Positions 2,941-51,994 of a stretch of DNA of 64,000 nucleotides are shown here, piece by piece (the stretch's first letter is position 1; the number at the start of each line of letters is the position of its first letter). The DNA is from Polaromonas sp. Lineage in GTDB: Bacteria > Pseudomonadota > Gammaproteobacteria > Burkholderiales > Burkholderiaceae_C. The notes beneath the pieces are model-generated. The model made no database searches, was not told where the DNA came from, and was given only the letters and a program-made list of their open reading frames with translations. Made by a program: the position numbers and the translations under genes. Location of the stretch: contig NZ_JABBPC010000018.1 of NCBI RefSeq assembly GCF_012927485.1, positions 1 to 64,000 on the forward strand, written 5' to 3'.

Positions 2941-4446
2941 TCAGCCGAGATTCACCGGAACAAAAATCTTGCTGTCGCCTCGTTGGATCAGCAGGGCCAC
3001 CGACTTGTCCGATTTGGCGACCGCCGCTCGAACCTGATCGAGGTTTTTCATCGGCACGCCATTGATGGAGATCAGCACGTCGCCAGATTGCACGCCCGCC
3101 AGCGCCGCTGGCCCTGTGGCCTGCTGAACCAGTAAACCGCTGTCGATACCCGCCTCCTGTTTCTCATCGGGTTGCAATGGACGCAGTGCCAGGCCTAGCT
3201 TGCCTTGGTTGGGCGCGTCTTTTTTGCTGGCCACCTGGACTGATTTATCGTCGGCATTGGCAAGGCGTGCAGTGAGTTCTTTCGATGAGCCCTGGCGCCA
3301 GATGTCCAGCTTGACGGTGTCGCCAGGGGTCGCCAAACCTATCAGCGCTGGCAGGTCGCCTGAAGACACGATAGGCTGCCCATTGACCTTTCGGATCACG
3401 TCGCCCGACTGCAAGCCGGCCTTTTCGGCGGGGCTGCCTTTTTCCACTGTCGACACCAGGGCGCCTTCCGGCTTGTCCAGCTTGAAGGAGTCTGCAAAGG
3501 CCTGGTTAACTTCCTGCACCGCCACCCCCAGGCGCGCATGCTCGACTTTTCCGGTGGCCACAATCTGGTTCTTGATCTTTGCGGCGACGTCAATCGGAAT
3601 GGCAAACGACAGGCCTTGGTAACCACCGCTCCGGCTGTAGATTTGCGAGTTGATGCCCACCACCTCACCGCGCGTATTGAACAGCGGTCCACCGGAGTTG
3701 CCGGGATTGATGGGCACATCGGTCTGAATAAACGGAACGGCGCTGTCGTCGGGCAACGACCGACCTTTGGCGCTGACGACGCCGGCAGTGACGGTGTTTT
3801 CAAAACCGAAGGGAGAGCCTATCGCGAGCACCCACTCGCCAACCTTGAGATCACTGGTTTTCCCCAGAGCGACCACCGGTAGATTTTTGGCGTCAATTCT
3901 CAGCACGGCGATGTCGGTTTTGGGGTCGGCACCGAGTACCTTGGCGCGGAACTCACGCCGATCTGTCAATTTGACCGTGACTTCCTTGGCATCGCGGACC
4001 ACGTGGGCATTGGTCAGGATAATGCCGTCGCTACTGACGATAAAGCCGGAACCCTGGACGTGGGTCGGTGTTGACTCCTGCCCGCCTTGTTCGCCGGGTC
4101 CTCCGCCCGGATGCTGGTGCTGCTGAAAGCGCCGGAAAAATTCGAAAAATGGGTCGTTGGGCATCCCCTCTCCATCACCCCGCGCTACCGGCGAGTCATC
4201 CGCCACCTTGGTGGTGCCGGTCACGCTGATGTTGACGACTGCCGGGCCGTAGCGTTCAGTGATCTGGGAAAAATCCGGAAGTGCCATAGGGGTGGCAGGG
4301 ATGCCACTGGCGACCATGGCGGCGGGTGGGGCTGCCGTGGCGGTTGAATTTATTGCGTTGAAGGCGCCAACCCCTGCGCCCCCAATGGCGCCAGCAGTCA
4401 GCAGCGCGACGACCAGCCGGGTATTTCTCAATGCAGCGGATTTCAT
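2941..4446 (-). CDS. htrA: periplasmic Do-family serine protease (DegP/HtrA type)
   Basis: 501-residue periplasmic protease/chaperone. An N-terminal signal segment (about residues 10-35, LVVALLTAGAIGGAG) is followed by a trypsin-like domain with the triad His148 (TNAHVV), Asp178 (KTDIAVL) and Ser251 (NPGNSGGPL). Two PDZ domains lie at about 295-385 and 415-495. A glycine/histidine-rich loop at 108-122 corresponds to the LA loop of DegP. The start ATG at 4446 is preceded by AAGGA. It lies directly downstream of the qseBC-like pair on the same strand but has its own promoter, with a direct-repeat operator (4510-4526) shared with that regulator. A second Do protease is encoded at 48154-49620. 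Confidence 0.93.
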   Translation of the reverse strand: MKSAALRNTRLVVALLTAGAIGGAGVGAFNAINSTATAAPPAAMVASGIPATPMALPDFSQITERYGPAVVNISVTGTTKVADDSPVARGDGEGMPNDPFFEFFRRFQQHQHPGGGPGEQGGQESTPTHVQGSGFIVSSDGIILTNAHVVRDAKEVTVKLTDRREFRAKVLGADPKTDIAVLRIDAKNLPVVALGKTSDLKVGEWVLAIGSPFGFENTVTAGVVSAKGRSLPDDSAVPFIQTDVPINPGNSGGPLFNTRGEVVGINSQIYSRSGGYQGLSFAIPIDVAAKIKNQIVATGKVEHARLGVAVQEVNQAFADSFKLDKPEGALVSTVEKGSPAEKAGLQSGDVIRKVNGQPIVSSGDLPALIGLATPGDTVKLDIWRQGSSKELTARLANADDKSVQVASKKDAPNQGKLGLALRPLQPDEKQEAGIDSGLLVQQATGPAALAGVQSGDVLISINGVPMKNLDQVRAAVAKSDKSVALLIQRGDSKIFVPVNLG

Positions 4447-49902: not shown

Positions 49903-49970
49903 TGATCCACAGGTCATCCACATGTTGTCCAGAGGTCATCAACATAAAATTGTGAATAAGTTGTGCATAA
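49903..49970. promoter_or_regulatory. array of six DnaA-box-like 9-mers with 11-bp phasing
   Basis: Forward: TGATCCACA (49903-49911), TCATCCACA (49914-49922), TTGTCCAGA (49925-49933) and TCATCAACA (49936-49944), with 1, 1, 2 and 2 differences from TTATCCACA. Reverse: TGTGAATAA (49951-49959) and TGTGCATAA (49962-49970), whose complements TTATTCACA and TTATGCACA match TTATNCACA exactly. Start points are 11 bp apart within each group, so DnaA would sit on one face of the helix. Boxes seen directly; role inferred. Confidence 0.65.
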
Positions 49971-50040
49971 GTTTCCTGTTGCTAGCTTGCAACGACAAAA
50001 ATATGGCTGTTTTGGGGCTGTTCGCTAAAGGCTTTTTGCC

Positions 50041-50046
50041 TACAAT
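50041..50046 (+). promoter_or_regulatory. -10 element of the candidate small RNA
   Basis: TACAAT (5 of 6 to TATAAT). The position 17 bases upstream reads CTGTTC, a weak -35, so an activator or a weak promoter is likely. Confidence 0.4.
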
Positions 50047-50052
50047 GAACTT

Positions 50053-50117
50053 CCAACTATCGCAGTTGCCATAGATTGTTGGTTCAGGGCGCGTCGCTAC
50101 TTGACGCGCCCTTTTTT
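50053..50117 (+). ncRNA. candidate small RNA upstream of lepA
   Basis: A transcript starting a few bases after the TACAAT hexamer (50041-50046) and ending at the strong terminator at 50087-50117 would be about 65-70 nt. Its 5' part can form a hairpin between CCAAC (near 50053) and GTTGG (near 50079), followed by the GC-rich terminator stem and a six-T tail, the usual plan of a short Hfq-type small RNA. No Rfam family was recognised by eye. It could instead be an attenuated leader of lepA. Confidence 0.4.
50087..50117 (+). terminator. strong intrinsic terminator upstream of lepA
   Basis: GGGCGCGTC (50087-50095), loop GCTACTT, GACGCGCCC (50103-50111), then six T's: a 9-bp perfect GC-rich stem. 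No protein gene ends here, since mucD ends 470 bases upstream and has its own terminator; this implies a separate short transcript. Confidence 0.9.
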
Positions 50118-50182: not shown

Positions 50183-51994
50183 ATGAATCACATCAGAAAT
50201 TTTTCGATCATTGCACACATTGATCATGGCAAATCCACGCTTGCAGACAGGATCATCCAGCGTTGTGGTGGCCTGCAAGATCGCGAGATGAGTGCTCAGG
50301 TGCTTGATTCGATGGATATCGAAAAAGAGCGTGGGATAACTATCAAGGCGCAGACCGCCGCGTTGAAATACAAGGCACTCGATGGTCAGATTTATCACCT
50401 CAATCTGATCGACACCCCGGGACATGTCGACTTTTCTTACGAGGTCAGTCGCTCGTTGTCTGCCTGTGAAGGTGCGTTGTTGGTGGTGGATGCCAGCCAA
50501 GGTGTCGAGGCACAGACTGTTGCCAACTGCTACACGGCATTGGAGTTGGGTGTGGAGGTTGTACCCGTGTTGAATAAAATGGATTTGCCGCAGGCCGACC
50601 CAGACAACGCCAGGCAGGAAATCGAAGACGTGATCGGTATTGATGCGACCGACGCGATTCCGTGCAGTGCCAAGACCGGCATGGGTATTGACGAAATTCT
50701 GGAAGCTGTGATTGCTCGGATCCCACCCCCCAAAGGCAACCCGAACGGCGCCCTGCGCGCGATGATTATTGACAGCTGGTACGACGCCTACGTGGGCGTG
50801 GTCATGCTGGTACGTGTGGTGGATGGGCGCTTGGCCAAGGGTGATCGGATCAAGCTCATGGCCAGTGAAGCCACCTACAACGCAGATCAGTTGGGCGTCT
50901 TCACCCCCCACACCGAGGAGCGTCAGTCACTCGAAGCCGGAGAAGTGGGCTTTGTGATCGCAGGCATCAAGGAACTTCAGGCGGCGCGGGTCGGCGATAC
51001 CCTGACCATGATCAAGCCCGGTACGGGTGGCGCTGCTTTCACGGCCACCGAGCCGTTGCCTGGCTTCAAGGAAATCCAGCCTCAAGTGTTCGCCGGCCTC
51101 TATCCGAGCGAGGCTAGCGAGTACGAGTCGCTGCGAGACGCGCTGGAAAAGCTCAAGCTCAACGATGCATCGCTGCATTACGAGCCTGAAGTCAGTCAAG
51201 CCCTTGGCTTTGGATTTCGTTGCGGATTTCTGGGCCTGCTTCACATGGAAATTGTCCAGGAGCGGTTGGAGCGGGAGTTCGATCAGGATCTGATCACGAC
51301 GGCGCCTAGTGTGGTGTACGAAGTGGTCAAGGCCGATGGCGAAATCATGCGGGTCGAGAATCCGTCGAAAATCCCCGACGCCGGAAGAGTCAGTGAGATT
51401 CGCGAACCCATCGTCACAGTGCATCTTTATATGCCGCAAGATTGTGTAGGCGCCGTCATGACGCTGGCCAATCTCAAGCGCGGCGTTCAGTTGAACATGG
51501 CCTACCACGGCAAGCAGGTCATGCTGACGTACGAGATGCCTCTGGGCGAAATCGTGCTGGACTTCTTTGACAAGCTGAAATCCGTCTCTCGCGGCTACGC
51601 ATCGATGGATTATGAGTTCAAGGAATTCAGGGCCTCCGATGTGGTGAAAGTCGATATTTTGCTCAATGGCGAGAAAGTAGACGCGCTGTCCATCATCGTT
51701 CACCGCAGTCAGTCGGCCTATCGGGGGCGAGCCGTAGTGGCCAAAATGCGTGAAATTATTTCTCGACAGCAATTCGACGTGGCGATCCAGGCAGCCATCG
51801 GGGCCAACATTATTGCGCGTGAGACAATTAAGGCGCTGCGCAAGAACGTGATCGCCAAGTGCTACGGCGGCGATATTTCACGTAAGCGCAAACTCCTTGA
51901 AAAACAAAAAGCAGGAAAAAAACGCATGAAACAAATCGGTTCTGTGGAGGTACCTCAAGAGGCGTTCCTCGCCATATTGCAGGTAGAAGATTAA
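50183..51994 (+). CDS. lepA: elongation factor 4 (LepA)
   Basis: 603 residues, translational GTPase that back-translocates or remodels stalled ribosomes. It starts [19 protein letters not shown], with the P-loop AHIDHGKS, switch [10 protein letters not shown] and NKMD; elongation-factor domains follow and the unique C-terminal domain ends in [22 protein letters not shown]. The ATG at 50183 is preferred over the TTG at 50180. The stop overlaps the lepB start (TAATG). Confidence 0.97.

Follow-up and report, generated by a model that had tools for sequence, protein, structure and literature searches.

The array of six DnaA-box-like 9-mers in this 64-kb stretch of DNA (hereafter the window) appears to be the regulatory region of a small RNA (sRNA) gene that had been overlooked between mucD and lepA, and to lie upstream of it. 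The comparative data described below make it fairly probable that this DnaA-box-controlled sRNA represses histone-like proteins by pairing at the starts of their mRNAs. A stricter version, in which DnaA directly controls the single-copy sRNA, which in turn would shut off the translation of histone H1-like, SWIB-domain and HU-like proteins at their start codons, is offered as a tentative but serious possibility. If true, it would constitute a direct circuit from the replication initiator to chromosome packing, maintained across more than 100 genera, and would address the open question of how bacteria couple chromosome compaction to replication and growth. The locus brings together a single-copy RNA, a predicted regulator (DnaA) and predicted nucleoid-protein targets, an arrangement that point mutations could test. 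The coordinates of its elements are summarized in Table 1.

Table 1. Sequence features of the region upstream of lepA in the window.
Feature	Coordinates	Strand	Basis or remark
Four forward DnaA-box-like 9-mers, 11-bp spacing	49903..49944	+	copies start at 49903 (TGATCCACA), 49914 (TCATCCACA), 49925 (TTGTCCAGA) and 49936 (TCATCAACA)
Reverse DnaA box TTATTCACA	49951..49959	-	position -90 of the sRNA -10 hexamer
Reverse DnaA box TTATGCACA	49962..49970	-	position -79 of the sRNA -10 hexamer
Palindrome TGTTGC-N6-GCAACG	49977..49994		sequence; conserved at -64..-47 in 102 upstream regions
Conserved element GGCTTTTTGCC, immediately 5' of the -10	50030..50040	+	conservation
Inferred sRNA-promoter -10 hexamer TACAAT	50041..50046	+	invariant in 23 distinct same-genus sequences
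Putative small RNA gene: hairpin CCAAC...GTTGG (50053-50082), then terminator	50053..50117	+	conservation, fold
Invariant loop core GCAGTTGCCA	50062..50071	+	antisense to ATGGCAACTGC nucleoid-protein gene starts
Predicted intrinsic terminator of the sRNA, AGGGCGCGTC...GACGCGCCCT + T run	50086..50117	+	terminator prediction, conservation
lepA, downstream neighbour	50183..51994	+	gene reading

All six 9-mers reported in a preliminary description of the window were found at their positions. The reverse pair matches TTATNCACA exactly and the first two forward copies differ from TTATCCACA by one base, both as described there, while forward copies 3 and 4 are each two bases off TTATNCACA. The 11-bp phase of the forward boxes was recovered as a direct repeat of spacing 11. 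Single boxes are unremarkable, since the window contains 26 of them with up to one mismatch, compared with 24.4 expected from shuffles. Four of these 26 matches are packed into the 68 bp of the array, and no second place with two boxes inside 70 bp was found elsewhere in the window. Similar phased pairs are likewise uncommon genome-wide: the pair TTATNCACANNTTATNCACA, with up to two mismatches, has three sites in the 3.5-Mb genome from which the window derives, two of them in the array, and its reversed-pattern control has none. Across 10 genomes, the same search yielded 20 sites in total and none for the reversed control, with a site upstream of lepA in nine of the 10 genomes (the exception is G148). 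Another genome of the genus, assembled as a single contig, contained no same-strand box pairs at 10–12 bp, with up to one mismatch in each box, in the 400 kb sampled. The array is genuine and not a product of chance. The strongest argument for this is its positional conservation among relatives, in which the boxes are kept at a fixed place across the family genomes. Both the rarity and the conservation on which the preliminary description had staked the array were thus borne out.

The fixed place of the boxes is defined relative to the -10 hexamer of the inferred sRNA promoter. With positions counted from the first base of TACAAT (position 0) and ±2 tolerated at offsets -90 and -79, 95 of the 102 genomes that carry the RNA core described below (core genomes) have one or both reverse boxes within one mismatch, and 62 have both. 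No boxes occur at 17 control offsets in the same 102 genomes. Neither reverse box is found within one mismatch in the other seven (G050, G060, G067, G070, G082, G096 and G148). A similar picture emerges within the genus, where a search of 41 genomes provided 30 lepA-upstream loci (L005–L034): at least one reverse box (≤1 mismatch) is in place at 25 loci, and the RNA is kept without the box pair at five (L008, L019, L020, L022 and L031). These core genomes and same-genus loci devoid of the pair suggest that DnaA control is dispensable in some lineages. The forward boxes are the weaker half of the array and are less well conserved; with up to three mismatches, they are detected at -115, -126, -137 and -148 in 68, 50, 46 and 29 of the 102 genomes, respectively. 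While the spacing between the boxes and the -10 hexamer is fixed, the distance from the lepA motif to the -10 hexamer varies between 149 and 295 bp. The boxes thus stand at a constant distance from the predicted promoter, a property expected of a DnaA-regulated promoter.

The base counts of the reverse boxes in the 102 core genomes follow TTATN[C/A]ACA, in which the final ACA hardly varies; these counts take the best of five offsets with up to three mismatches, a selection that favours the consensus. This pattern, including its near-fixed 3' triplet, agrees with what we take to be the DnaA-box consensus, and exact TTATCCACA lies inside the dnaA loci of seven of the 10 genomes inspected. The identification of the 9-mers as DnaA boxes, made in the preliminary description, is thereby partly supported, in that the reverse-box pattern fits. 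Another explanation accepts the RNA and its nucleoid-protein targets as real but assigns the boxes to a different protein with a similar motif, or leaves the control to a factor at the palindrome alone. The palindrome equals or exceeds the boxes in conservation, the genomes and loci listed above lack the box pair, and the forward boxes drift to TTGTCCAGA and TCGCCCACA forms, all of which would suit such a factor. We nevertheless regard this explanation as unlikely, although deserving of some weight, because the reverse boxes fit TTATN[C/A]ACA and exact copies reside in the dnaA loci. DnaA remains the predicted regulator in what follows.

The segment downstream of the boxes is even more conserved than the boxes themselves. 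The block GGCTTTTTGCC-TACAAT-GAA..-CCAACTATCGCAGTTGCCATAGATTGTTGG-TTC-AGGGCGCGTC...GACGCGCCCT-TTTTT is present, with small variations, at all 30 same-genus loci, and an alignment of its 23 distinct same-genus sequences contains 67 invariant columns out of 89, with a mean column identity of 94%. The predicted 5' end of the sRNA lies at about 50052–50054, which would give a length of about 65 nt. Its fold has a z-score of -4.79, no compensatory pairs occur among the 22 pairs in the same-genus alignment, and single-structure folds leave between four and all 10 of the 10 core bases unpaired. A mini-ORF of nine codons over the RNA (ATG AAG ... CCA TAG) was considered and rejected, as its frame is broken by 1-nt indels between species. 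A predicted promoter of its own, a predicted intrinsic terminator and the absence of a conserved ORF are the properties of a trans-acting sRNA gene.

The RNA is widespread in the family and occurs as a single copy. When 120 family genomes representing 119 genera were searched with a covariance model (R1), 105 of them gave a single match each. R1 was built from an RNAalifold structure that pairs the promoter hexamer with the hairpin, a structure not used for the mechanism, and it overlooks some diverged copies, such as that of G082, which was recovered by reading. Upstream of lepA, the exact core GCAGTTGCC was located in 103 of the same 120 genomes (119 genera), comprising 102 detected by script and G108, in which core, boxes and lepA are all present and which the lepA pattern had missed. 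R1 matched three of the 17 genomes that lack the exact core, namely G084, G123 and G125, and the latter two each carry a core one base off GCAGTTGCC. In an order-wide sample of 120 genomes under strict filters, R1 matched only three known family members; the remaining 117 comprise 20 listed as belonging to other families and 97 of unlisted kinship. No Rfam family was matched at its gathering score in the window region and five loci. Weak matches to the Rfam AsrC model over the lepA start reached 14.9–27.2 bits (gathering score 111). They cover 50183–50253 on the minus strand of the window and recur at L035, L073, L084 and L093, and these repeated weak matches are probably due to chance. A distant blastn search of a phage collection returned six records, four corresponding to the lepA-coding end and two to a 22-base match in a phage gene. 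In five genomes in which the core is absent (L294, L303, L302, L306 and L311, in G076, G090, G134, G120 and G062, respectively), TACAAT and a G+C-rich terminator-like hairpin still precede lepA, and the sequence between the two differs; the arrangement looks as if an altered RNA were still made there.

Boxes and RNA mostly occur together. In 16 of the 17 genomes lacking the exact core, including G125, no box within one mismatch was found in the 420 bp before lepA, and the boxes are kept in G123 despite the lack of an exact core. The preliminary description had suggested three roles for the array, namely a DnaA-controlled lepA promoter, an additional origin and a titration or reactivation site of the datA/DARS kind. 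The first comes closest, but the promoter concerned would be that of the sRNA and not of lepA: the boxes keep their spacing to the sRNA promoter (-90/-79, ±2), their separation from lepA is variable, and array and lepA are divided by a predicted terminator. At the loci read, lepA does lie downstream of the array. An origin would be expected beside dnaA-dnaN or at the GC-skew minimum, and dnaA is located elsewhere in all 10 genomes examined: it is on another contig in the window's own genome, and in nine relatives it lies 18–41% of the chromosome away (22–28% in seven of them), with contigs taken as circular. The GC skew of G129, computed over 20 stretches of 20 kb, was noisy. An array serving as the lepA promoter or as an additional origin is barely credible.

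DnaA-box clusters of the datA/DARS kind are known, and the present array shares with them, and with oriC-type arrays, the clustering of boxes at helical spacing. Six boxes within 68 bp, away from dnaA, could accordingly be a titration or reactivation site to which the sRNA promoter is an incidental neighbour. The present array differs from those systems in being locked to an sRNA promoter, with a spacing to the -10 hexamer that is fixed across the family, and in its absence from 16 of the 17 genomes lacking the exact core, so that it does not look independent; moreover, usually only the reverse pair is strong. A dedicated titration site is thus very improbable, and of that suggestion the box cluster itself is what stands. 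Titration may still be a side effect of an array whose primary role would be the control of the sRNA.

The antisense of the invariant loop is exactly ATGGCAACTGC, which contains a start codon. This sequence forms the start of K/A-rich nucleoid-protein genes encoding SWIB-domain, histone H1-like and sometimes HU-like proteins. A scan of 10 genomes with TGGCAACTGC, from which the first three loci per genome were taken (30 loci), contained four gene starts, all of which encode MATA(K)KK proteins; one of them is an H1-like protein of G113. The predicted target protein in the window's own genome has a SWIB/MDM2 domain and a K/A-rich tail. SWIB proteins were detected by a PF02201 search in 120 of 120 family genomes and in none of 14 controls. 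MAT-type SWIB starts were readable in 112 genomes, with a script that favoured the exact start among several in-frame candidates. Among genomes with the core, 93 of 95 have exactly ATGGCAACTGC as this start, the broken ones being G082 and G151, compared with seven of 17 among those without it. In the 10 coreless genomes with broken starts, codon 2 is GCC or GCT and codon 3 is ACC or ACA, among other changes. SWIB paralogues with other starts (L197, L198, L201 and L216) have no match to ATGGCAACTGC. Eight core genomes provided no SWIB start for this count. They include G101, whose MATAKK start, ATGGCCACTGC, contains GCC, precedes the SWIB domain by 108 bp and seems broken; this genome has two lepA loci, one with the RNA and one without.

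The association between the core and the exact SWIB start gives a Fisher p of about 2e-8, uncorrected for phylogeny. This value overstates the independence of the observations, since core losses are few and the coreless genomes are mostly adjacent: a lepA tree that covers 87 of the 120 genomes implies about four core changes and eight start changes, with 12 of 16 coreless genomes adjacent to one another. The association is supportive rather than independent evidence, and a stronger argument comes from codon usage. In 100 exact SWIB genes, past codon 6, GCA accounts for 515 of 3099 alanine codons and ACT for 33 of 425 threonine codons, and despite this minority use codons 2–3 are GCA ACT in 93 of 95 core genomes.

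The match extends beyond the SWIB genes. MATAKK starts, irrespective of codons, were matched in 115 of 120 genomes; the matches listed number at least 150 in at least 72 genomes, at least 137 of them from 65 core genomes. Among the matches listed, core genomes contribute 137 MATAKK starts, of which 129 are exact, and at least two exact genes are present in 56 of the 65 core genomes; seven coreless genomes contribute 13 starts, four of them exact. Of 30 MATAKK genes sorted by eye, 12 are SWIB, 14 H1-like, two HU-like and two unrelated. The unrelated genes, L345 in a core genome and L369 in G123, have other codons at their starts. Family scans of single examples identified SWIB in a SWIB protein, HC2 and the NCBIfam model hist_H1_lk_Burk in L360, and Bac_DNA_binding in L374. 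The window's own genome has two MATAKK matches, and the start was read for the SWIB one. Since the MATAKK genes read are mostly SWIB, H1-like or HU-like, the predicted regulon consists of nucleoid proteins. In Waddlia, a small SWIB protein is reported to be bound all along the genome (PMC6426960). Many of the family genomes contain a second SWIB domain within a frame of about 1000 aa, probably that of a topoisomerase; the alignment of the small SWIB protein with the NCBIfam topoisomerase III model scores below the cut-off of that model.

These starts could also be read as the outcome of early-codon preference combined with shared K/A-rich N-terminal tails, with no pairing and some other role for the RNA. 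The exact start is indeed kept in seven of the 17 genomes that lack the exact core, and the MATAKK tail is common to three protein families that are possibly homologous there. Codon 4 is biased as well, with GCA or GCG found there in 127 of the 129 exact starts among the matches listed, and an early-codon bias may therefore contribute. Such a preference would have to account for the use of GCA ACT at codons 2–3 against the habit of the same genes, for the drift of these codons in the 10 coreless genomes, and for the other codons in L345, an unrelated MATAKK gene within a core genome; we consider it improbable as a full explanation. No covariation of codon 4 with the base 5' of the RNA core was seen by eye. 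Predicted duplex energies of 94 pairs average -35.5 kcal/mol, compared with -25.2 kcal/mol for shuffled leaders, of which 163 of 4700 reached the observed energy; this support is weak, since the method ignores internal structure. With phylogeny roughly handled, the antisense match to translation starts appears to be under selection, as would be expected for the targets of a trans-acting sRNA.

Considering the geometry of the promoter and the conservation of the target starts, the following mechanism may be envisaged for a DnaA-controlled sRNA. DnaA would bind the phased box pair and set the transcription of the sRNA, and a second factor at the palindrome may act together with DnaA on the promoter. 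The sRNA hairpin would present GCAGUUGCCA for pairing with AUGGCAACUGC at the mRNA start, a loop–start contact predicted from complementarity. Pairing over the start codon would block translation initiation on the nucleoid-protein mRNAs. No clear -35 hexamer is present and a sigma-70-type promoter scan gave no match; the missing -35 points to DnaA as an activator and not a repressor. This activator role, like the purpose of DnaA control, is a guess. With the sRNA under DnaA control, the synthesis of nucleoid histones would follow DnaA activity, and hence the growth or replication state of the cell.

The nearest precedent for the proposed mechanism, by analogy, is IhtA of Chlamydia. Complementarity between 6 nt of IhtA and the opening 6 nt of the hctA ORF, ATG included, is described, and occlusion of the start site is suggested (PMC3469542). 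IhtA is a small RNA repressing the histone H1-like protein Hc1, as is predicted here, and an H1-like mRNA whose start codon would be covered by the complement is also present in our sequences (for example, L360). The two systems differ in the bacteria concerned, in the length of the complement (10–11 nt here), in the two or three nucleoid-protein families addressed here and in the DnaA-box array upstream of the present RNA. The likeness suggests convergence, in which two distant groups with H1-like histones would have arrived at start-codon restraint by an sRNA. In a Caulobacter study, ncRNAs are predicted to be DnaA-regulated from upstream boxes, on the basis of motif predictions in one species (PMC5988900). 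That study likewise proposes ncRNA genes under the control of the replication initiator through upstream boxes; the present box pair is phased with the promoter in 95 of 102 genomes, nearly all from different genera, and the RNA and target set differ.

Among the known small RNAs of related bacteria, the Betaproteobacteria toxic small RNA family (RF02278) includes the double-hairpin RNAs ncS03/05/27/62 of B. cenocepacia, with three to five copies per Burkholderia genome (PMC5688073). These are also very short two-hairpin RNAs predicted to cover translation starts, whereas the present RNA has one match per genome, and the loci searched hit no Rfam model other than the weak AsrC. The ncS35 RNA of B. 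cenocepacia was considered as the same RNA and rejected, as the accessible description gives it a different place and restricts it to a few Burkholderia. Among the papers listed from the open-licence literature, none was recognised as being about the present RNA, and lepA is not mentioned in the available portions of PMC5719362, PMC10987360, PMC7563307 and PMC10175445. The sRNA lists for B. cenocepacia and B. thailandensis, as far as accessible, identify their entries by position or locus tag and not by gene name, so this transcript may already figure in such a survey under a number.

In the genome from which the window derives, the dnaA locus (L001, C13:17267-21613) shows, by eye, long inverted-repeat sequences carrying DnaA boxes on both flanks of dnaA. 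Within L001, positions 900–945 pair with 3053–3105 and positions 1050–1080 with 2905–2945, and the origin region looks as if it were mirrored around dnaA.
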